Assembly (NCBI GenBank): GCA_021324675.1
Contig: JAJPIR010000329.1
Span: forward strand, 1 to 36,429
Source: Actinomycetota bacterium
Lineage (GTDB): Bacteria > Actinomycetota > Actinomycetes > Mycobacteriales > Pseudonocardiaceae
Direction of reading: 5' to 3'
Length of the DNA: 36,429 nucleotides
The position numbers were made by a program, and so were the translations under genes. Within the stretch, counting starts at the first letter, position 1. The number at the start of each line of letters is the position of its first letter. This document shows, one piece after another, positions 1,156 to 14,278 of the stretch. The notes beneath the pieces are model-generated. The model saw only the letters and a program-made list of their open reading frames with translations. It did no database searches and was not told the origin of the DNA.

Positions 1156-2403
1156 ATGTACGAACGGGTGGCCGCGATCGATGTTGGCAAGAAGATCATC
1201 GCGGTGGCGGTGCGCACTCCGGGTGAGCGAGCGGGCAAGCGCCGCCAGCAGGTGCGCAAGTACAACACCTTTCACCAGACGCTGGCCAAAATGGTGGCCT
1301 GGCTGGTGTCCGAGGGCGTCACGCACGTGACCATGGAAGCGACGGGGATTTATTGGAAGCCGATCTTTCACGCCCTGTGTGAGGCCGAAGGCCCTGTGGA
1401 GGTGTTGCTGGTCAACGCGCGGCATGTCAAGAACGTCCCAGGCCGCAAAAGCGACGCCCTGGACGCGGTGTGGCTGGCGGAGTTGACCGAGTGCGGGCTG
1501 CTGCGGGGCAGCTTCATCCCGCCACCACAAATCGCCGCGATCCGGGAGTTGACCCGCTACCGCAAAAAGCTCATCGAGCAACGCACCAGCGAATTGCAGC
1601 GCCTGGCCAAGGTCCTTGAGGACAGCGGAATTAAGATCGACTCGGTGGCCTCGAAGTTGACCACTCTGTCGGCCCGAGACATGATCGAGGCACTGATCAA
1701 CGGGGAACGTGATCCCGCCGTGCTGGCGGATCTGGCTCGCGGGGTGATGCGCAAGAAGATCCCCGAGCTAACCATGGCCTGCGCCGGGCGCTTCAGTGCC
1801 CAGCACGCGCTGATGTGCACCCTGCACCTGGAACACATCGACCACCTCGCGGACATGATCGCCCGGCTGGACACCCGGATCGACGAGGCCACCCTCCCTT
1901 TCGTCCGGCAGACCGAGCTGCTGGCGACGATCCCGGGAATCGGTGAGCGCGCCGCCCAGGTCGTCATCTCCGAGATCGGTGTGGAGATGTCCCGGTTTCC
2001 CACCGCGGCACACCTGGCGTCATGGGCTGGCTTGTGCCCGGGCAACAACGAATCCGCCGGGCGGCACCGATCCGGCAAGACCCGCAAGGGCAACACCGAA
2101 CTCTGTGAGATCCTCACCGAATGCGCCTGGGCCGCCGGACGCACCAGCACCTATGTCGGTGCCCAGTTCCGCCGCTTTCACCGCCGGTTCGGCAAAAAGG
2201 GCGGCCAGAAGGCCGCTACTGCCACCGCCCATACCCTGATCGTGATCATCTGGCATGTGCTCGCCGAGACCACCGCCTACCGCGACCTCGGCCCGGACTA
2301 CTTCACCCGCCGCATCGACAGTCCCGAAGCCCGCAAACGCCGACTCATTCACGAACTCGAAGCCCTCGGACACAAGGTCACCATCGAACCCAACGCTGCG
2401 TAA
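1156..2403 (+). CDS. IS110-family transposase (DEDD plus Transposase_20)
   Basis: A 415-aa transposase if started at ATG 1156, which follows a GGTGGAG motif; an in-frame ATG at 1084 has weaker support. The N-terminal RuvC-like DEDD domain shows D9 in AIDVGKK, E61 in MEATGIYW, and D100/D103 in KSDALDAVW. The C-terminal Transposase_20 domain shows the helix-hairpin-helix-like TIPGIGERAAQ, then LASWAGLCPGN and NNESAGRHRSGKTRKGN, where the serine of ESAG is the expected nucleophile. Length and domain order are full. Known IS110 recombinases use a structured RNA to choose donor and target. The gene looks intact, so the element may still be active. Confidence 0.93.
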   Translation: MYERVAAIDVGKKIIAVAVRTPGERAGKRRQQVRKYNTFHQTLAKMVAWLVSEGVTHVTMEATGIYWKPIFHALCEAEGPVEVLLVNARHVKNVPGRKSDALDAVWLAELTECGLLRGSFIPPPQIAAIRELTRYRKKLIEQRTSELQRLAKVLEDSGIKIDSVASKLTTLSARDMIEALINGERDPAVLADLARGVMRKKIPELTMACAGRFSAQHALMCTLHLEHIDHLADMIARLDTRIDEATLPFVRQTELLATIPGIGERAAQVVISEIGVEMSRFPTAAHLASWAGLCPGNNESAGRHRSGKTRKGNTELCEILTECAWAAGRTSTYVGAQFRRFHRRFGKKGGQKAATATAHTLIVIIWHVLAETTAYRDLGPDYFTRRIDSPEARKRRLIHELEALGHKVTIEPNAA

Positions 2404-2578
2404 CCGGTCACCAGCATCAATCATCAACCAACCCGGCACCCAGCAGGGTCACCAACCCCTGCGTCCGGAACGTGCCTGGTCACCGCAGTTTCGTCTCAGA
2501 CACACCTATCGGGTGACATCTGGTGTGGCTGGGTTACGGGAACGGTTGTCGGTCGCCCGTCTTTGCTTCGCGAAATAT

Positions 2579-3904: not shown

Positions 3905-4174
3905 AATCACTCGAACTGAATAGGTGTCACCGATCGTGGTTGGGAACACTGTGAGCTGACAACGGTGACGGTGTTCGGGCCCAGTCCAGCCGCGACCAAA
4001 GTGCCAGCGCGGTAGCGGCAGAACACGCGGCTCGGGAATATCTCGGGGGAGTCGATGCACCCGTGCTGCCGCGTGGTTTGCCTGTGCAAGGGCGGCTAGC
4101 TCCCCCGGTGGCACACCGGTCATCATCGCTGCGCCACTCATCGCGCCTCGCTCGGCCTGACGACCGCGACCCAC
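3830..4174 (-). CDS. Possible small hypothetical protein running into iterons
   Basis: A 114-aa frame with a plausible N-terminal half (MSGAAMMTGVPPGELAALAQ from an internal ATG at 4141, then RVHRLPRDIPEPRVLPLPRW) and good G/C at third positions. Its last 35 residues are encoded by the CTCCCT iteron cluster and are probably not under protein selection. There is no known domain and no clear ribosome site. It may be a real short gene with a decayed 3' end, or chance. Confidence 0.25.
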   Translation of the reverse strand: MGRGRQAERGAMSGAAMMTGVPPGELAALAQANHAAARVHRLPRDIPEPRVLPLPRWHFGRGWTGPEHRHRCQLTVFPTTIGDTYSVRVIEGVSQGGTEGCEGVLPAGSLPAPP

Positions 4175-4757: not shown

Positions 4758-5456
4758 GCCCGCATCGTGTCAGAACCTGGCGCGGCGACGTGACCCGCTG
4801 GCGTTGGCAAGCTGCGCCACCCCTCCTGCTCCTAGGCGCTTCGCGACTAGCTCGACTAACAAAAAACGCCGGATGAGAATTAGTTGACCAACAAACAGGT
4901 GTGCGATCTGGTCCGAGGACGCAGAACGGGCGGCGCCTACGGCCAGGCGTGAGGACTCTCGGTCCGTGCAAAGTTGGAAGGCCGGGTCCTCCGACGGCTC
5001 GACCTCCGGGGTGGTCGACAGCCTGGGGGTTACGCAGATCGAGGAACGCCAAGGTGGTTACGGGGGCTACCGGCTGGCCCGGTGAACCAATCACCGCGAT
5101 CGGCGTGACAAGTACGCTGGGAGCGGGCTACGACCAGCCAGCGGATCGGGTACGCCACCGGGATCGTCGACAGAACCTCTCCTTGGGGCACCCGCCGCGG
5201 CTGCTGACCTGGTCAAGTTTTGTTTTGGCATGGTGCTGGCCGGCTGACTAGGCGTGGGTGAGGCTGAAAAAGCCAGGATCGTCACCAGCTACGCTGGACC
5301 CGTCGGGGGACTACTTGGCCGCGTTGGCGAGCCAGTTGGCACAGTTGGTTGGTGTCCTTGTCCTCGGAGCGGACTGCGGCTACGCCGTGTGGACAGTGAG
5401 TGAGGGGCCCCCGCGTGCGCGGTGTCGTCGGCGGGTCAGGAAAGAGGACGCAAGCC
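4758..5456. other. Stretch without a supportable gene
   Basis: About 700 bases with overlapping open frames on both strands, none with a recognisable domain or convincing start. The frame at 4901-5251 (+) and the one at 4741-5094 (-) are both arginine/proline-rich. One patch near 5290-5390 (+) reads DYLAALASQLAQLVGVLVLG and could be a gene scrap. Confidence 0.35.
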
Positions 5457-5729
5457 GTGGAGCACCAACACGCCGCGCATGACCTCGCTGAGGCGTTTGG
5501 GTCTTTCGATCGGGCCCGCCTTGATCGAATGAGCGAGGTCGATCGAGCGAGCCAGCTAGACGCCCGCCAGCGGCTCCATGACTATGTGGACGGGTTGTGG
5601 GCAGACATCGATCAGGCCGGGGAGCGCCCGGCCGTGGGAGAGAAATACCAGGCGATCGCGGCGATGCGGGAGCTGACCGGGGCGCTGCGGACAATCGCTT
5701 TCGAGGCAGTGTACAACGCGCCGGACTGA
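5457..5729 (+). CDS. Hypothetical protein, 90 aa, helical
   Basis: Start chosen at GTG 5457, which follows an AAAGAGG motif. The protein begins VEHQHAAHDLAEAFGSFDRA and continues with the helical, charged segments RLHDYVDGLWADIDQAGERP and KYQAIAAMRELTGALRTIAF, ending NAPD. Codon use is typical coding, and the overlapping minus-strand frames are less plausible. I do not recognise a family. It is likely soluble and helical. It stands alone between non-coding stretches, with no operon partner visible. Confidence 0.5.
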   Translation: MEHQHAAHDLAEAFGSFDRARLDRMSEVDRASQLDARQRLHDYVDGLWADIDQAGERPAVGEKYQAIAAMRELTGALRTIAFEAVYNAPD

Positions 5730-7707: not shown

Positions 7708-7813
7708 GATCGCCAGTCGTGGCGATTCGACTGCAGTATCGCCGTCCCAGTTTCACTTGCGACGTCGCGATCTACTTGGCAGGTTGCTACACGAATACGC
7801 CCAGGTCGCACGA

Positions 7814-7840
7814 CGTGGATGACCAGTTCGGCACCCACAC
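7814..7840 (-). repeat. 27-bp dispersed repeat, copy 2 (upstream of SDR)
   Basis: Perfect inverted copy of 7640-7666, separated by 147 bp. The pair could form a long stem at the 5' end of the SDR transcript or a cruciform in DNA. Confidence 0.85.
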
Positions 7841-8082
7841 CGTGCTCCTGCGGAGAAGTCAGCGACAACAGTCCAGTGTGCGGCTGGGGACACGTTTCGG
7901 CAGCACCGTGTGGGAGCACCAGCTCCGCCTTGGCCCCATGGATCGGCTGGCGTGTTTTCACGCTGGGTGCACCCGCTGATCATGTCGGTCGCCCGGGACC
8001 GGGGCGGGGAATTTATATGCGTGGTTTGCGCACATGGGTTGACAGGGGTTGTTGGGTGGGGGTGCACTGGGTGGTGCAGCAC
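7841..8082. other. Intergenic, M-box promoter region
   Basis: There is no convincing gene on either strand. The transcript carrying the M-box must start here or just upstream. A TTTATAT patch near 8011-8017 is the only AT-rich spot. A TTGACA at 8039-8044 lies about 40 bases before the M-box and is a possible -35 element, although no clear -10 follows. Confidence 0.4.
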
Positions 8083-8242
8083 CTCGTTCGGTGAGGCGTC
8101 TGTGCGGACATAGGCCACTGACCCTCCAGTGTCGAGAGACGCTGCTGGGTCAGGACAGGTCTCCCCGGCCTAAGGGGTGACCCCAGGTGGCTTCTCGCCC
8201 AGGTGGGTGGGGTACGCCGTGCAGTGCCAAAGCTCTGACGAG
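8083..8242 (+). ncRNA. M-box (ykoK leader) magnesium riboswitch
   Basis: The segment follows the M-box consensus in order: closing stem CTCGT (8083-8087) with ACGAG (8238-8242), GGTGAGGCGTCTG (8090-8102), ACATAGGCCACTG (8108-8120), AGACGCTGCTGGGTCAGGAC (8137-8156), GGCCTAAGG, and the hallmark CAGTGCCAAAGCTCT (8222-8236), close to the consensus CAGTGCTAAAGCTCT. Known M-boxes fold when Mg2+ is plentiful and shut off expression of Mg transport genes. Here it leads a unit with an NRAMP-type transporter, an MgtE-domain protein and MgtC, which agrees fully. Confidence 0.9.
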
Positions 8243-8243
8243 G

Positions 8244-8312
8244 GGGTGCCTGAGTTCACTGCGCCGGTTTCGGGCGCTGGGTATCTGCGCTGCGCCGGAA
8301 GTGATGGCACCC
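8244..8312 (+). promoter_or_regulatory. Long hairpin after M-box (expression platform candidate)
   Basis: GGGTGCC (8244-8250) pairs with GGCACCC (8306-8312), and TCACT (8256-8260) with AGTGA (8300-8304). The inner part is rich in further GCGCC/GGCGC pairing. The hairpin starts two bases after the riboswitch, where an expression platform would sit. No U-tract follows, so Rho-dependent or structural control is more likely than a classical intrinsic terminator. Confidence 0.55.
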
Positions 8313-8344
8313 GCGTGTGCCCTGGCGGCGAGGAGGTGGGCGGC

Positions 8345-8425
8345 ATGAAGCCGGGCGATAGTTGCCCTTTGTCTTGTTTGGTGTTCCTCGACACGTCCAC
8401 CGGGGTTCATGTGTTGATTACCTGA
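8345..8425 (+). CDS. Possible 26-aa leader peptide in the M-box mRNA leader
   Basis: ATG 8345 follows the strong ribosome site GAGGAGGTG with a short spacer and encodes MKPGDSCPLSCLVFLDTSTG followed by VHVLIT and a stop. It lies between the riboswitch hairpin and the first structural gene. Leader ORFs are known in Mg-regulated messages of enterobacteria (for example mgtL), where their translation controls termination. A similar role here is inference. The strong ribosome site is the main support. Confidence 0.45.
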   Translation: MKPGDSCPLSCLVFLDTSTGVHVLIT

Positions 8426-8496
8426 TCGGCTAATCCTCGCCGGGGGCTGTGTCGAGCTGGTCCCTCCACCTGTGCTGGGTGGGTTGGGAGGCCGCC

Positions 8497-8679
8497 ATGT
8501 CGATCACGATCACCATTGCTGGTGTGGACCGCTCAGCTGGTCTAGGTCGGGTCGTCCGCGACCTGCTGCCCGTGCTGGGCAGTGTGCTGCTGCCCATCGC
8601 CGAGGAGTTCGTTCCCGGCCTGGGGATCGCCGTTGGCGTGAGCAAGCTGCTCGGGCTGCGGGTCGAGGTGATCCGGTGA
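8497..8679 (+). CDS. Small 60-aa hydrophobic protein preceding the transporter
   Basis: Begins at ATG 8497 after GGGAGG. The sequence MSITITIAGVDRSAGLGRVV leads into a mostly non-polar middle (LLPVLGSVLLPIAEEF) and LGIAVGVSKLLGL. Its TGA overlaps the GTG of the transporter in GTGA (8676-8679), so translation is coupled. It is too short for a transport protein by itself. It may be a peripheral or single-pass accessory of the transporter. I know no family for it. Confidence 0.6.
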   Translation: MSITITIAGVDRSAGLGRVVRDLLPVLGSVLLPIAEEFVPGLGIAVGVSKLLGLRVEVIR

Positions 8680-10343
8680 GCAGGAACACGCCGGCGACCC
8701 GAGCGCCTGTCCGTGCGGAGCGGGCTCAGAGTGCGGTGCTGGATGAGGCCCACCTGGGGGATATTCAGGGTGCGTTGGGCACCATCCGCGACGATGACCA
8801 GGCGCCCCGTACGGGGTTGGCGGCTCGGTTGAAGACCCTGATAGCGATCGTGGGCCCGGGTCTGATCGTGATGGTCGGGGACAACGACGCGGGGGCGTTT
8901 GGCACCTACACGCAGGCGGGGCAGAACTATGGCACGGCGCTGTTGTGGACGTTGTTGTTGTTGGTCCCGGTGTTGTATGTCAATCAGGAGATGGTGGTGC
9001 GCCTGGGCGCGGTGACCGGGGTGGGGCATGCCCGGTTGATTCTGGAGCGCTTTGGTCGGTTCTGGGGCGCGTTCAGTGTGATCGACCTATTTTTGCTCAA
9101 TGCGCTGACCATTGTCACCGAGTTCATCGGGATCAGCCTGGGCCTGTCCTATTTAGGGCTGCCCAAAGTGCCCGGGGTGCTGCTCGCCGCGGTGGTGGTG
9201 ATCGCCGCGGCGTCGACTGGAAGTTTCCGCCGCTTCGAGCAAGTATGCCTGGCGCTGGTGGCCGGGTCGCTGCTGTTGGTGCCGATCGTGGTGATGGCCC
9301 ACCCGCCGCTGGGCCAGCTGGCCCGGGATTTTGTGGTGCCGGGTCTGCCGGCGGGGGCGCAGCTGTCCACGGTGATGCTGCTGATCATCGCGATCGTGGG
9401 GACCACGGTGGCGCCGTGGCAGTTGTTTTTCCAGCAGTCCTATTTGATCGACAAGCGGATCACCCCGCGGTTCATTGGTTACGAAAAAGTCGATTTGTGG
9501 ATCGGGATCGTCATCGTCATTGTGGGTGCCGGCGCGATGATGGCCTTTACCACCGCAGCGTTCACCGGGCATCCCGAGTTCGGACAGTTCAGTGATGCTG
9601 GTGGGGTCGCCGCCGGTCTGGGTCACTATGTCCACCACGCCGCCGGGGTGTTGTTCGCCTTGGCGTTGATCGACGCCAGCATCATCGGCGCCGCCGCGGT
9701 GAGCCTGGCCACCGCGTATGCGATCGGGGATATGTTGGGGTTGCGGCACTCGCTGCACCGCCGCCCTCGGGAGGCTGCGGGGTTTTATGTGGTGTTTGCG
9801 GGCTTGTTGGTGGTCGCGGCGATCATTGTGGTCATTCCGGGGAGCCCGCTGGGTCTGCTCACCGAAGGGGTGCAAACCCTCGCGGGGGTGTTGTTGCCCT
9901 CCGCGACAGTGTTTTTGCTGTTGCTGTGCAACGACCGTCAAGTGCTCGGACCGTGGATCAACGGCCCAAAAATGAATATCTTCACTGCGGCGGTGATCGC
10001 GGTGTTGGTGATGCTCTCGATTGTGCTCACCGCCGCGGTGGTCTTCCCCGACATCACCAGCACCGCGATCCTGACCATCCTCGGTGGGGGTAGCGGCCTG
10101 GCCGTGCTGGCCGGAACCTACCTCGTTGTGCGCCGCCGTCGCCACGGCGAGCAGATCGAGACCCCGGCAGCGGTGGACCCGCAGCTGCGCGCCAGCTGGC
10201 GCATGCCCCCGCTAGTGCTACTGACCCGGCCGCAGCTGAGCGCCGGGCGCCGGCTCGGGCTGGCCGTGTTGCGCGGTTATTTGGTCATCGCCGCGGGGAT
10301 GGTGATCGTCCGCGTGGTGCAACTTGCCCTGGTCGGTCACTAA
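8676..10343 (+). CDS. NRAMP-family transporter, probable Mg2+ type (NRMT-like)
   Basis: A 555-aa polytopic membrane protein with a hydrophilic N-terminus of about 50 residues and at least eleven membrane segments. GTG 8676 is coupled to the upstream gene. The fold and the first helix GPGLIVMVGDNDAGAFGTYT are NRAMP, but the metal-binding motifs differ from Mn/Fe carriers. The DPGN of helix 1 is replaced by DNDAG (residues 69-73), and the MPH of helix 6 is APW (residues 246-248). Loss of the soft methionine ligand is the reported feature of NRAMP-related Mg transporters. The M-box upstream and the MgtE-domain and MgtC neighbours point to Mg2+ uptake. It was probably derived from an mntH ancestor, but MntH would be a misleading name. 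Confidence 0.85.
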   Translation: MSRNTPATRAPVRAERAQSAVLDEAHLGDIQGALGTIRDDDQAPRTGLAARLKTLIAIVGPGLIVMVGDNDAGAFGTYTQAGQNYGTALLWTLLLLVPVLYVNQEMVVRLGAVTGVGHARLILERFGRFWGAFSVIDLFLLNALTIVTEFIGISLGLSYLGLPKVPGVLLAAVVVIAAASTGSFRRFEQVCLALVAGSLLLVPIVVMAHPPLGQLARDFVVPGLPAGAQLSTVMLLIIAIVGTTVAPWQLFFQQSYLIDKRITPRFIGYEKVDLWIGIVIVIVGAGAMMAFTTAAFTGHPEFGQFSDAGGVAAGLGHYVHHAAGVLFALALIDASIIGAAAVSLATAYAIGDMLGLRHSLHRRPREAAGFYVVFAGLLVVAAIIVVIPGSPLGLLTEGVQTLAGVLLPSATVFLLLLCNDRQVLGPWINGPKMNIFTAAVIAVLVMLSIVLTAAVVFPDITSTAILTILGGGSGLAVLAGTYLVVRRRRHGEQIETPAAVDPQLRASWRMPPLVLLTRPQLSAGRRLGLAVLRGYLVIAAGMVIVRVVQLALVGH

Positions 10344-10438
10344 CCAGATCTACAGTTACTGCGGTGACCGGCTCAGGCCGCCAGGACGGTGCCTACCAGT
10401 CGATGACCGAAGTCTTTACCGGAAAGGGACCCCTGGTC

Positions 10439-11908
10439 ATGACTTCCCCCCAGGACCCACCACACACCACCAGTGCTCAACTTTCGGCGCCGAACCCGGG
10501 CTCAGGATCCGCCTCGCCGGCGCACCCATCTGAGCAGACCGTTCAGACGCTGTCGTTGTCGCAGCTGCTGCGCCGGGCGGTGGTGGGAGCCCGGGGGCAG
10601 AAATTGGGTGGCCGGGTGGTCGATGTGATCGTCCGGCTGCACGGTAGTGACTATCCGCTGGTCACCGGGCTGGTCGCCGAGCTTGGTGGGCGGCGGGTGT
10701 TCGTGCCGGCCGACATGGTCACCCAGTGGGACACCGACGAGGTCTCGCTGTCCTCTCCGCGGGTAGATCTGCGTCCTTTCGAACGCCGTGAGGGTGAGGT
10801 GTTGCTGCGCGCGGACATCCTGGGCCACCGGTTGATCGACATTCCCCGGGCCCGGCTGGTGCGGGCCTATGACCTGGAACTGGCGCACACCCCGGCCGGA
10901 TGGGTCCTGGCCAGAGTGGACACCCACCCCACCAGCTGGTGGCAGCGCCTGCTGCGCCAGGTCACGTCCGCTTCAGGCCATCACGGTGGCGACGATGAAA
11001 GCGAGGCGGGGACTCAGGGCTGCCGGGATTGGAAGGCCTTCGAGGCGCTCATCGGTCACCAGCCCACGGTGTTGATCCGCCGCCCGGTCGGGCGGCTGCG
11101 TCGCCTGAAGCCCCCGCAGATCGCCGACTTGCTGGAACAAGCCTCCCGCGCGGAGCAAACCGAGCTGCTCGACCAGGTCCACGCCGACCCCGAGCTGGAA
11201 GCCGACGTGTTCGAAGAACTCGACGACGACCGCCAATCCCGGCTGCTACGCGACCGCAGCGATGACGACATCGCCGCCCTGCTAGCCCGGATGCGCGCCG
11301 ACGACGCCGCCGATGCCATCACCGAGTTACCCCAACACCGCCGCCAACCGGTCCTGAACCTGCTGCCCCCCGGCCAACGCACCAAAGTGACCGCGCTGCT
11401 GGCCTACAACGCCACCAGCGCCGGAGGCCTAATGGGCCTGGACTACCTCGCCCTGCCCCGCGACACCACGGTCGCCGCCGCGCTGGAGCGAGTCCGCGCC
11501 GCGCGCACCCTGCAACCCGAGGCCCTGACCACCATCTTCAGCCTGGATAACCACCACCGGCTGCGCGGTGCCACCGGCCTGGTCACCCTGCTGCAGGCCG
11601 ACCCCAGCGCGCAGCTGCGCGACATCGCCGATGCCGACCCCATCCGCGTGCATCCCGATACCGACCTGATCGACGTCACGCTGCTGATGACCGATTACAA
11701 CCTGCTCAACCTGCCCGTCGTCGACGACAACGACCACCTCCTCGGCGTGATCACCGTTGACGACGCCCTGGAATCCACCGTGCCCCGCAACTGGCGCCGC
11801 CGCGAACCCACCCCGCAGCCCGACGCCCCCGACGACCCCGACCAGACAACCCCGACCGACCCGCACCCAGGAACTCACCGCAACACGGCCACACCCAGGG
11901 CTACCTAA
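10439..11908 (+). CDS. Soluble PRC-barrel / MgtE N-domain / CBS protein
   Basis: A 489-aa protein without membrane segments. ATG 10439 is preceded by GGAAAGGG; an in-frame ATG at 10403 lacks this. After a Pro/Ser-rich start come PRC-barrel-like repeats (about 40-185, GARGQKLGGRVVDVIVRLHG), the MgtE superhelical N domain (about 215-340, with LKPPQIADLLEQ and ADDAADAITELPQHRR), and a CBS pair (about 345-460, ending LPVVDDNDHLLGVITVDDAL). In MgtE these last two parts sense Mg2+ and gate the pore, but no pore domain follows here. A role as a separate Mg sensor acting on the adjacent NRAMP transporter is an attractive inference. The charged Pro-rich tail is disordered. Confidence 0.85.
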   Translation: MTSPQDPPHTTSAQLSAPNPGSGSASPAHPSEQTVQTLSLSQLLRRAVVGARGQKLGGRVVDVIVRLHGSDYPLVTGLVAELGGRRVFVPADMVTQWDTDEVSLSSPRVDLRPFERREGEVLLRADILGHRLIDIPRARLVRAYDLELAHTPAGWVLARVDTHPTSWWQRLLRQVTSASGHHGGDDESEAGTQGCRDWKAFEALIGHQPTVLIRRPVGRLRRLKPPQIADLLEQASRAEQTELLDQVHADPELEADVFEELDDDRQSRLLRDRSDDDIAALLARMRADDAADAITELPQHRRQPVLNLLPPGQRTKVTALLAYNATSAGGLMGLDYLALPRDTTVAAALERVRAARTLQPEALTTIFSLDNHHRLRGATGLVTLLQADPSAQLRDIADADPIRVHPDTDLIDVTLLMTDYNLLNLPVVDDNDHLLGVITVDDALESTVPRNWRRREPTPQPDAPDDPDQTTPTDPHPGTHRNTATPRAT

Positions 11909-11938
11909 ACCCCGACACCCACGGCGTCAGGAGTGATC

Positions 11939-12445
11939 ATGGTCCCTCCACCGCCCACCCGACCACGATCACCGGCCCAGCATGCGCATGCGCGTGGCCG
12001 CCTCCATGCTGCGCCACGGCCACGACCCCCACGCAGTCGCCGAGGCCACAGCGGTTCCCCTGGCCCTGGTGGACCTGATCAGCGAGCAGCTCGACACCCA
12101 CCCCGCGACCAGCCCCCACCACCGGCCACCCACCCCACACCTCACCACCGCGCGGGAAACAACATCATCGGCGCTGACCCACATCCGCCAGCCACACCCA
12201 CTAACCCGGTCGGAGCTCCCCGCGCTCCCGAACGGCACGCCCGCCGGGGGGCCCTCATCACCGTGGCGGCCCTGATCGGCTGGATGATTAACCTGGGCCT
12301 GTCGGCCACCGCAGACATCATCCACCTACCCACCCTCGGAATAACCTCATTGATCCTCGCTCCGCTGCTCGTGGTCGCCCTCGTGCTCAACGCCACCCGG
12401 TCGCCACGCAGACCCGGACCCAACCGGGGTGCACCCCGGCGATGA
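11939..12445 (+). CDS. Small membrane protein coupled to mgtC (frame uncertain)
   Basis: ATG 11939 lies just after AGGAG. The frame runs to TGA 12443-12445, which overlaps the mgtC start in ATGA, so its 3' end is clearly used. The C-terminal part has two hydrophobic helices (ALITVAALIGWMINLGLSA and LGITSLILAPLLVVALVLNA). The first two thirds in this frame, however, are Pro/Arg/His-rich and look like a shadow of the better frame at 11982-12275. The likely gene is a helix-turn-helix-like N-terminus joined to a membrane C-terminus by frame changes near 11960 and 12160, or by sequence errors. Confidence 0.5.
   Translation: MVPPPPTRPRSPAQHAHARGRLHAAPRPRPPRSRRGHSGSPGPGGPDQRAARHPPRDQPPPPATHPTPHHRAGNNIIGADPHPPATPTNPVGAPRAPERHARRGALITVAALIGWMINLGLSATADIIHLPTLGITSLILAPLLVVALVLNATRSPRRPGPNRGAPRR
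11982..12275 (+). CDS. HTH-like reading frame overlapping the preceding gene
   Basis: From ATG 11982 or 11988 this frame reads MRVAASMLRHGHDPHAVAEA followed by TAVPLALVDLISEQLDTHP, a convincing helix-turn-helix-like segment with strong coding bias. It then turns Pro/His/Thr-rich and stops at 12275. It has no ribosome site of its own. It is best viewed as the N-terminal part of the same gene as the frame ending at 12445, separated by an indel, or as an independent overlapping ORF. Confidence 0.4.
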   Translation: MRMRVAASMLRHGHDPHAVAEATAVPLALVDLISEQLDTHPATSPHHRPPTPHLTTARETTSSALTHIRQPHPLTRSELPALPNGTPAGGPSSPWRP

Positions 12446-13251
12446 CCACCCTGGACATGCTGCTACGCCTGGCCACCGGCCTAGGCCTGGGAGCGCTGAT
12501 CGGGATCGAGCGCCAATGGCGGGCCCGGATGGCCGGGCTGCGCACCAACGCCCTGGTCGCCACCGGCGCCACCCTGTTCGTGCTGCTCTCGGCCTACGGC
12601 TTTACTACCACCGGAATATCCAGCGTCATCCGCGCCGACCCCACCCGAGTAGCCGCCCAAATCGTCTCCGGGATCGGATTTCTGGGCGCCGGAGTCATCC
12701 TGCGCGACGGCCTGAACGTGCGCGGCCTGAACACCGCCGCCACCCTGTGGTGCTCCGCGGCGGTCGGAGCACTCGCCGGGGCCGGCATGTACCCGATCGC
12801 CGCACTCGGCACCGCCGCGGTCATCACCGCCAACGTGCTACTACGCCCGCTGGGCCGACGCATCGACCGCCAACCCAGCGGCGGCACCGAAATCGCCGTC
12901 GGCTACCGCTTCCAAGCCGTCTGCGCCGACAGCGCCGAAGCCCACATCCGGGCCCTGCTCGTCCAAGCCATCACCAACACCGACTTCCAACTACGCGCAA
13001 TCCGCAGCTACGACACCAACACCGACCATCAAGTCAGTGTCACCGCCGAGCTCACCGCCCAACACCGCGACGACCGCCAACTCGAAGCCGCCGTCAGCCG
13101 CCTCAGCCTCGAACCCGCCGTCACCGCCGTCAGCTGGACCGTACAAGCCGACCTCCCCGAGGACACCACCGACGACGACCCACCAGCCGGCGACCCCACC
13201 CGGGCCAGCTTGCGACTACGCTCTGTCCTCACCCGCCACCGCCCCCACTAA
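12442..13251 (+). CDS. mgtC: MgtC/SapB-family membrane protein
   Basis: A 269-aa protein starting at ATG 12442, which overlaps the preceding stop (ATGA). The MgtC membrane domain is typical: LLRLATGLGLGALIGIERQW, then AGLRTNALVATGATLFVLLS, VSGIGFLGAGVILRDG and VRGLNTAATLWCSAAVGALA. An ACT-like C-terminal domain of about 100 residues follows. In pathogens MgtC aids growth in low Mg2+ and restrains the F-type ATPase. It is not itself a proven transporter. As the last gene of the M-box unit it should rise when Mg2+ is scarce. The ending is Pro/Asp-rich and variable. Confidence 0.93.
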   Translation: MTTLDMLLRLATGLGLGALIGIERQWRARMAGLRTNALVATGATLFVLLSAYGFTTTGISSVIRADPTRVAAQIVSGIGFLGAGVILRDGLNVRGLNTAATLWCSAAVGALAGAGMYPIAALGTAAVITANVLLRPLGRRIDRQPSGGTEIAVGYRFQAVCADSAEAHIRALLVQAITNTDFQLRAIRSYDTNTDHQVSVTAELTAQHRDDRQLEAAVSRLSLEPAVTAVSWTVQADLPEDTTDDDPPAGDPTRASLRLRSVLTRHRPH

Positions 13252-13286
13252 CCCTGCTCAGCATCGGCGAGTGCCCGGTAAGGCTG

Positions 13287-13305
13287 ATCCTCCGCCACGA
13301 AGGAT
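13287..13305. terminator. Weak hairpin between convergent genes
   Basis: ATCCT (13287-13291) and AGGAT (13301-13305) can pair around a 9-nt loop in the 58-bp gap between convergent mgtC and the VWA gene. The short stem without a T-tract makes this only a possible bidirectional terminator. Confidence 0.25.
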
Positions 13306-13309
13306 GAGG

Positions 13310-14278
13310 TCAGGCGGGCAGGCGTTGGGAGAGCACCAGCCCCGCACCCGCGGCGGCCAGGCAGCTCAGAGTGCCCAGGATCAACCAGGGTCGGCTGACG
13401 TCCTGGCGGATGGTTTGGTAGCCGATCTGCTGAGCCAGACTGTCGTAGACCTGATGGATCTGTTGGTTGCTTTGCGCCGGATAGAACTGGCCACCGGACA
13501 GTTCGGCGACCTTGGCCAGGGAGTCATCATCAACCGGTACCGGGACCTGTTCACCTTGGATCTCCACGGTGCCATACGAGGTGCCAAACGAGATGGTGCT
13601 GATCGGGATGTGGGCCTGACCGGCCTGGGTGGCGACGGCGAATTCGTCCCGGCCGGTGGTTTGTTTGCCATCGCTCATCAGCACGATCCGCGCTGGCGGC
13701 GCTCCCTGGCCCTGACCGGGGATGAGTTGGTTGACCATGTCGATGGCGTTGAGCGCGGCCGCCAGGGCATCCCCGGTAGCGGTGGCCTCAGCCAGTCTCA
13801 ACGTTTGGATAGCGCGCACAGCTTGGTCGTGGTCGGGGGTGGGGCTGACCAGCACGGTCGCGGAGCCGGCGAAGGATTCCACGCCCAAATTAATCCCCGG
13901 GGTCAGCTGCCGGACAAACGAGATCGCGGCGTCTTGCGCGGTGGCCAGCCGGGTGGGGCTGACGTCGGTGGCGTTCATCGACAACGACACGTCGATCACC
14001 AGCATTACAGTGGCCCGGTTACGGGGCACCTGGGCCTCGGCGGTGGGCCCGGCCAACCCCAGGGTGAGCAGCAGCAGCGCCACCACCAGCAACACCGCCG
14101 GAATCTGGCGGGGCCAGCCCGCTCGGCGCGGCGCGATGCGCTCCAGTAGCTCCAGGTTGGCAAAACGCAGCAGATAACGGCGGGCCCGCCGCTGGGTCCA
14201 GAGGTATCCGGCGATCACCGCGGCTACCAAGCCCAGCAGCGCGAACCACCCGGGTGCGGAGAAGCCACCCACCACCAT
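13310..14278 (-). CDS. VWA-domain membrane protein (BatA / Rv1481-like)
   Basis: A 322-aa protein with two N-terminal membrane segments (about 8-26 and 59-77), a von Willebrand A domain (about 90-280) and a final membrane helix (about 300-318). The MIDAS metal site is intact: DVSLS at 96-100, the TGDAL region, and LMSDGKQT. This layout matches BatA-type proteins and the mycobacterial Rv1481-like group, in which the domain faces the cell surface or membrane. Such genes usually sit with a MoxR ATPase and a DUF58 protein; neither is here, so this copy is an orphan. Function in this setting is unknown; a divalent-cation-dependent membrane role is possible. Confidence 0.88.
   Translation of the reverse strand: MVVGGFSAPGWFALLGLVAAVIAGYLWTQRRARRYLLRFANLELLERIAPRRAGWPRQIPAVLLVVALLLLTLGLAGPTAEAQVPRNRATVMLVIDVSLSMNATDVSPTRLATAQDAAISFVRQLTPGINLGVESFAGSATVLVSPTPDHDQAVRAIQTLRLAEATATGDALAAALNAIDMVNQLIPGQGQGAPPARIVLMSDGKQTTGRDEFAVATQAGQAHIPISTISFGTSYGTVEIQGEQVPVPVDDDSLAKVAELSGGQFYPAQSNQQIHQVYDSLAQQIGYQTIRQDVSRPWLILGTLSCLAAAGAGLVLSQRLPA

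Follow-up and report, generated by a model that had tools for sequence, protein, structure and literature searches.

An M-box riboswitch ahead of an NRMT-type carrier gene in an actinobacterium of the Pseudonocardiaceae

The closest described relatives of the locus considered here are operons in which an M-box, the Mg2+ riboswitch also called the ykoK leader, lies upstream of a gene related to the NRAMP metal carriers. Shin et al. (2014, PMC4072509) named these genes NrmT, reported their repression by Mg, and noted a partner gene beside NrmT that encodes an MgtE N-domain; Ca_c0685 rescued a Bacillus subtilis strain deficient in Mg transporters, and Ca_c3329 did so at higher Mg. EleNRMT of Eggerthella lenta, whose structure is PDB entry 7QIA, transports Mg2+ and also Mn2+ (Ramanadane et al. 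2022, PMC8806188). In mycobacteria, M-boxes are found before metal-transporter genes, and mgtC forms part of the M-box-controlled pe20 operon; the pe20 M-box of Mycobacterium tuberculosis acts through a platform that controls translation, together with Rho-dependent termination and a short upstream open reading frame (uORF) that is itself regulated, and the mycobacterial leader peptide has been called genus-specific (D'Halluin et al. 2026, PMC12810186). The present analysis concerns a stretch of 36,429 nucleotides from an actinobacterium of the Pseudonocardiaceae (assembly GCA_021324675.1, contig JAJPIR010000329.1, positions 1 to 36,429), referred to as the window, in which an M-box heads a set of Mg-homeostasis genes on the same strand, encoding an NRMT-type carrier, an MgtE_N/CBS protein and MgtC (Table 1). 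The window very probably holds a Mg2+-starvation operon, which adds an actinobacterial case to the M-box/NrmT class described in 2014.

The pairing of M-box and NRMT has been known since that year, and the suggestion in an earlier note on this DNA that the link supplies independent genetic evidence for Mg2+ transport by this branch was anticipated by Shin et al. (2014). What is new is the scope, with M-box-NRMT loci in many actinobacteria and a leader open reading frame (ORF) of wider occurrence, and a rereading of mycobacterial genes of the 'Mn-type'. A term search of the main text of Shin et al. (2014) finds neither Actinobacteria nor Streptomyces, and Mycobacterium in the references only. 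Beyond the mycobacterial study, titles and the starts of abstracts yielded no work on actinobacterial M-box-NRMT operons, in a search of mainly open-access literature.

Table 1. Features of the M-box-led operon, in positions of the window
Feature	Position	Strand	Evidence or remark
M-box (ykoK leader) Mg2+ riboswitch aptamer, full length	8076-8252	+	Rfam RF00380
Shine-Dalgarno (SD)-led leader ORF, 26 codons, at the position of the mycobacterial Rv1805A-type uORF	8345-8425	+	SD GAGGAGGTG before ATG
60-amino-acid ORF ('small protein B')	8497-8679	+	Stop overlaps carrier start
NRAMP-related carrier (NRMT/NrmT branch, DxxA subgroup), 555 amino acids	8676-10343	+	PF01566 1.3e-77; GTG start
Soluble PRC(weak)/MgtE_N/CBS protein	10364-11908	+	Pfam, MgtE structures
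Small gene split over two frames	11939-12445 (frame of 11982-12272 + frame of 11939-12445)	+	No Pfam match
MgtC/SapB family protein, 269 amino acids	12442-13251	+	PF02308 9.9e-39; PF21770 (MgtC_SapB_C) 2.3e-28

The M-box and its NRMT-type carrier

The identity of the riboswitch is confirmed. In a scan of the whole window at Rfam gathering scores, RF00380 is the sole match, with 125.6 bits (E 5.4e-28, gathering score 44) and an alignment over model positions 1-169 of 169. The earlier note had called a strong M-box at 8083-8242; the RF00380 match covers that interval, so that strength and location stand, and only the extent had been drawn 7 and 10 bases short at the two ends. The Pfam matches likewise bear out its unit of an NRAMP-like carrier, a soluble MgtE-sensor protein and MgtC, to which the two short ORFs at 8345-8425 and 8497-8679 and the split small gene before mgtC have to be added. 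The order after the M-box is thus leader ORF, 60-amino-acid ORF, carrier, MgtE_N/CBS protein, split small gene and mgtC. As in the operons of Shin et al. (Clostridium acetobutylicum Ca_c0685 and Ca_c3329), the M-box lies directly upstream of the carrier and an MgtE N-domain partner is present; those operons, however, come mostly from Clostridia and Deltaproteobacteria, whereas the window is from Actinomycetota and adds the leader ORF, the 60-amino-acid ORF, a weak PRC match on the partner and a terminal mgtC.

The carrier finds its best PDB match in 7qia, that is EleNRMT (3.6e-51), and the next solved NRAMP follows at 8.7e-18, 33 orders of magnitude weaker. Its metal site reads D71-A-G-A74 on helix 1 and T243-T-V-A246-P-W on helix 6, with the helix-6 Met ligand replaced (TxxA) and the Asn of the DPGN motif lost. 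The exchange of Met for Ala and the Trp after the helix-6 Pro (APW) are shared with EleNRMT, which differs in the last of the four helix-1 motif residues (Gly) and in its chain of 438 residues. The classical Met and the DPGN Asn are missing from all 21 carriers of the M-box set, whereas the classical NRAMP at locus L016 retains DPGN/ATVM. A tree of 106 proteins, built by a quick method and including neither EleNRMT nor the Clostridium proteins, separates two classical NRAMPs with 100% support in the Shimodaira-Hasegawa-like approximate likelihood ratio test (SH-aLRT). Taken together, family membership, metal-site residues and M-box control indicate that the carrier probably imports Mg2+.

Some observations speak against so simple an assignment. 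For NRMTs the consensus in the literature is DxxG with TxxA/T (Ramanadane et al. 2022), and the window carrier has DxxA instead of the exact DxxG. The same Ala is found in 81 of 85 matches in the relatives' loci, with Gly in 12 of the 21 carriers of the M-box set, and on this account the carrier is assigned to a subgroup with DxxA that stands next to the strict NRMTs. A NrmT relative of A. capsulatum, which has an MgtE-like partner and no M-box, rescued Mn transport and is probably mainly a Mn carrier (Shin et al. 2014). Genetic linkage alone is therefore insufficient to establish a substrate. The biology put forward in the earlier note, an M-box ahead of a gene from a Mg2+-carrying branch of the NRAMPs, probably holds, since Mg2+ transport by the NRMT/NrmT branch is known. 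The same A. capsulatum gene, the Mn2+ transport by EleNRMT and the DxxA site could all be taken to mean that the carrier chiefly imports Mn2+, or divalent ions in general, and happens to be induced at low Mg2+. This is improbable, since the A. capsulatum gene lacks an M-box, whereas in the genome of the window both NRMTs are M-box-led and the classical NRAMP is not.

That genome contains three M-boxes, three NRAMP-family genes and one CorA (contig C52), which is without an M-box; no match to the MgtE transmembrane domain PF01769 was found in it. Both NRMTs sit behind M-boxes, and the third NRAMP (C283) is classical (DPGN, ATVMPH), with no M-box found on its contig. One M-box-free classical NRAMP set against two M-box-led NRMTs in a single genome makes a tidy built-in control that corroborates a Mg2+ role for the latter. 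The second operon, on contig C326, repeats the M-box, leader ORF, small protein B, NRMT (87% identity) and MgtE_N protein (80%), and no MgtC was found within its 9 kb stretch. It could be argued that the two operons derive from two strains binned together, given a fragmented assembly (5.63 Mb, 364 contigs, 95% complete, 3.47% contamination) and a second M-box only 199 bases from a contig end. Such an origin is rather unlikely, as an identity of 87% at the protein level and a differing set of genes downstream suggest paralogues more than variants between strains, and the reading of the window itself is independent of binning. The third M-box of the genome (C130; L095 5985-8254) is followed by a 52-amino-acid ORF and then a 500-codon ORF, from 6753 to the contig end, which has no Pfam match.

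Recurrence of the pairing among actinobacteria

The earlier note had proposed a survey of M-box leaders followed by NRAMP genes, and the pairing proves to be recurrent. Relatives were the best 80 of 571 confirmed contig loci encoding the closest carrier homologues, and they were searched with a covariance model for which 21 M-boxes of the order had been aligned. An M-box lies just upstream of the carrier in 21 of the 80 (E <=1.4e-28), one of these matches, L012, being by construction, as the training alignment of the model includes the M-box of G006 C84, apparently the same contig, since each has 45,461 bases. In these 21 relatives 240-417 nucleotides separate the end of the M-box from the start of the carrier as aligned. 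M-boxes lead the carrier in 20 of the 39 loci titled Actinomycetota as against 1 of the 41 others, L019; upstream sequence falls below 700 nucleotides only in L007, where the absence of an M-box consequently says little, and in L019. The latter (titled Proteobacteria, BP9.bin99) closely resembles L015 (Actinomycetes, BP9.bin26) and adjoins it on short branches of the tree, which makes misbinning of L019 likely. No convincing M-box was found in the proteobacterial relatives, the three further matches having E values of 0.07 to 0.29. Within 1.5 kb of the carrier, MgtE_N is present in 19 and MgtC in 16 of the 80 loci, and M-box, MgtE_N and MgtC occur together in L054 only. The gene order of the window is also seen in L193, from another family of the order, with M-box, NRMT (75%), MgtE_N (56%), a small gene and MgtC (43%). 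At L044 (Actinacidiphila oryziradicis) three M-boxes lie within 3 kb, at 2281-2454(-), 3987-4165(-) and 5001-5174(+), and two of the three run against the direction of the NRMT gene at 5501.

Starting from the riboswitch instead of the carrier, 27 of 298 genomes sampled from the order have M-boxes, with 63 sites listed of which 3 are those of the window's own genome. NRMT lies downstream within about 6 kb of 12 of the other 60, two of which cover a shorter downstream stretch (L148, 2.7 kb; L165, 4.9 kb), and in 11 of the 12 it starts within 1 kb. The genus sample (11 genomes) and family sample (120 genomes) yielded 11 M-boxes outside the own genome, 7 of them leading NRMT. In the tree all 41 M-box-linked carriers fall into one branch of 65 rows with 97% SH-aLRT support, and the M-box label requires 13 changes compared with 32.7 in shuffles, although near-copies inflate such clustering. 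For 24 of the 65 carriers in this actinobacterial branch no M-box was found, a further point against reading the operon as a Mg2+-starvation unit.

Ten of the 12 NRMT-leading M-boxes in the order sample belong to a single genus, g53, of family f8. This genus is probably Mycobacterium, to judge from the PPE-like and Rv1535-like genes that follow its other M-boxes. Its carriers share 51-55% identity with that of the window, and their metal sites (DAGG-TTVA) conform to the strict pattern of NRMTs. A 'Mn2+-type' class of mycobacterial M-boxes, with manganese-transporter-type genes downstream, has been described (D'Halluin et al. 2026), and the M-box-NRMT loci of g53 are likely to be this class. 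If they are, the genes of the class would be better read as Mg2+ carriers.

The leader ORF and the mode of switching

The window shares with the M. tuberculosis pe20 operon the M-box itself, a short leader ORF with its own SD downstream of the aptamer and the presence of mgtC, and differs from it in having NRMT and MgtE_N in place of pe/ppe. Leader ORFs were scored when SD-led, at least 13 codons long and starting 218-320 nucleotides after the aptamer start; the window ORF starts at +270. Such an ORF is present in 86 of 94 actinobacterial loci, which comprise 74 sampled at the level of order, genus and family and 20 relatives, with L012 left out as lying on the same contig as L098. It occurs in 51 of 57 loci of f8, in all 14 of the window's family, in all 3 of two other families and in 18 of the 20 relatives. 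Dinucleotide shuffles gave 9.6 of 94 on average (standard deviation 2.6, maximum 16, 40 rounds). A length of 23-27 codons is seen in 62 of the 86, compared with 0.7 in shuffles. An actinobacterial leader ORF of this kind is thus wider than genus-specific, occurring in Streptomyces, Kitasatospora, Pseudonocardiaceae and others.

Many of the leader peptides have similar N-termini with PGDS or PGHS cores. Conservation at the level of the peptide is, however, unsupported on the present data, as a codon test gave no clear sign of selection: in the f8 set the fraction of silent changes is 0.162 in frame 0 compared with 0.181 and 0.181 in the other frames (184 pairs). In two smaller sets frame 0 is slightly higher (0.281 against 0.268 and 0.224 in 19 pairs; 0.242 against 0.238 and 0.172 in 4 pairs). 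The pairs overlap and so are non-independent. Since frame 0 is not favoured, the similar N-termini require no more than conservation of the RNA near the start. The window peptide has Cys at position 7 and Pro at position 8; lacking the Pro at position 7 of the Rv1805A type and of pe20, it is regarded as the same kind of leader ORF and is not filed as an Rv1805A homologue.

Control by translation and Rho has been shown for pe20 and is inferred for the window, where a translational platform that switches the ribosome-binding site of the leader ORF is plausible. The openness of this site was compared with and without the 3' strand of the aptamer in the 58 of 74 leaders that could be scored. On average the unpaired fraction is 0.45 with the strand and 0.21 without it, a difference of 0.24 compared with 0.06 for shuffled spacers. 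In the window the effect is weak: the SD is unpaired at 0.62 with and 0.38 without the strand, and 8 of 60 shuffles gave a change as large. In the window's family 5 of 13 leaders change in the negative direction, and only L103 exceeded 57 or more of its 60 shuffles. Over all 58 leaders the change is absent or negative in 14, and 16 exceeded 57 or more of 60 shuffles. Folds of the window expression platform are no more stable than those of shuffles. A platform based on an intrinsic terminator is not convincing, with 5 terminator-like sites in 7750-13400, all on the plus strand, compared with 2.4 expected (standard deviation 1.5). Four of these are inside the carrier gene and one, a hairpin with a T-rich tail at 8353-8367, is within the leader ORF.

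Operon layout, accessory genes and a model of the response

From 8497 onwards the genes of the operon share one strand and either overlap or lie no more than 30 bases apart, and the stop of small protein B and the start of the carrier overlap by four bases (GTGA in the window, ATGA in C326). Small protein B gave no match in Pfam and PDB sequence searches. Four strong copies occur in the 11 genus genomes, each directly after an M-box, two of them without NRMT in the stretch covered; the members of this family, which start with MSITIT, are at 8497-8679 in the window and at L002:618-799, L096:4281-4457(-) and L100:2941-3126(-). The copy in L096 precedes a gene of the GCS2 family (glutamate-cysteine ligase-like), and no transporter was recognised in L100. 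Between the window and C326 copies, changes are in excess at the third codon position (12, 8 and 18 by position). Among the 120 family genomes strong copies are confined to the own genome, and three others are weak (E 5.5e-4, 3.5e-3 and 4.5e-3). A role as a general companion of NRMT finds no support, as none of the 80 NRMT loci L004-L083 gave a match to the protein (tblastn, E 1e-3).

The occurrence of M-box and small protein B without NRMT in the genus relatives L096 (4.9 kb) and L100 (3.6 kb) could suggest that direct control by the riboswitch extends no further than the leader ORF and small protein B, and that the carrier and the genes after it are transcribed from a promoter of their own that does not respond to Mg2+. 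This arrangement is very unlikely in view of the four-base overlap in both the window and C326 and of the repeated pairing of M-box and NRMT without small protein B. Moreover, the sole promoter-like site in 7750-13400 is on the minus strand, in a search by sigma-70 consensus that may miss actinobacterial promoters.

The protein encoded after the carrier has MgtE_N (2.3e-21) and CBS (1.7e-11) matches in Pfam, and a PRC match (0.0025) below the cut-off. It resembles the cytosolic structures of MgtE (8gpv, 2.1e-24; 2yvy, 2.8e-23) and matches the TIGR00400 mgtE model at positions 27-249 only. Compared with the MgtE channel it has the N domain and CBS and no match in Pfam to the transmembrane domain PF01769, so the label of a soluble MgtE-sensor is fitting. 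With its MgtE_N homology and its place beside NRMT it resembles the partners noted by Shin et al. (2014), and it is likely to be a Mg2+ sensor partner of the carrier; its true start may be internal. The small gene that follows appears to combine a helix-turn-helix-like N-terminus, in the frame of 11982-12272, with a hydrophobic, transmembrane-like C-terminus in the frame of 11939-12445. Its homologue in L193 is one ORF, and the split may reflect an assembly indel, decay or frameshifting. The last protein has both the MgtC domain and the C-terminal domain of the MgtC/SapB family, and matches PRK15385 at 2.4e-60, below the cut-off of that model.

For an operon induced by Mg2+ starvation the following course of events may be envisaged. 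At low cellular Mg2+ the aptamer of the M-box would open and free the downstream ribosome-binding site; the leader ORF would be translated and transcription would go on, the platform being modelled on M. tuberculosis, where both translation and Rho take part. Raised expression of the NRMT carrier would lead to import of Mg2+, as its family, metal-site residues and M-box control suggest. The MgtE_N/CBS protein, raised in parallel, would probably report cytosolic Mg2+ to the carrier, as proposed by Shin et al. (2014), and expression of MgtC would rise alongside. More tentatively, and with somewhat more doubt than confidence, it is proposed that the actinobacterial M-box constitutes one translational module, made up of the aptamer and a leader ORF at a fixed distance whose translation, and not its peptide, operates the switch, and that this module precedes NRMT, MgtC, MgtE, PE/PPE and other genes. 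On the same proposal the mycobacterial 'manganese-type' operons would be NRMT Mg2+ importers, and the genus of the window would have added a dedicated 60-amino-acid accessory protein to its Mg2+ response.

The window bears out, in a further lineage, the view of M-box control as a mark of the Mg2+ branch of the NRAMP carriers, and suggests that the mycobacterial genes called manganese transporters warrant a test for Mg2+.

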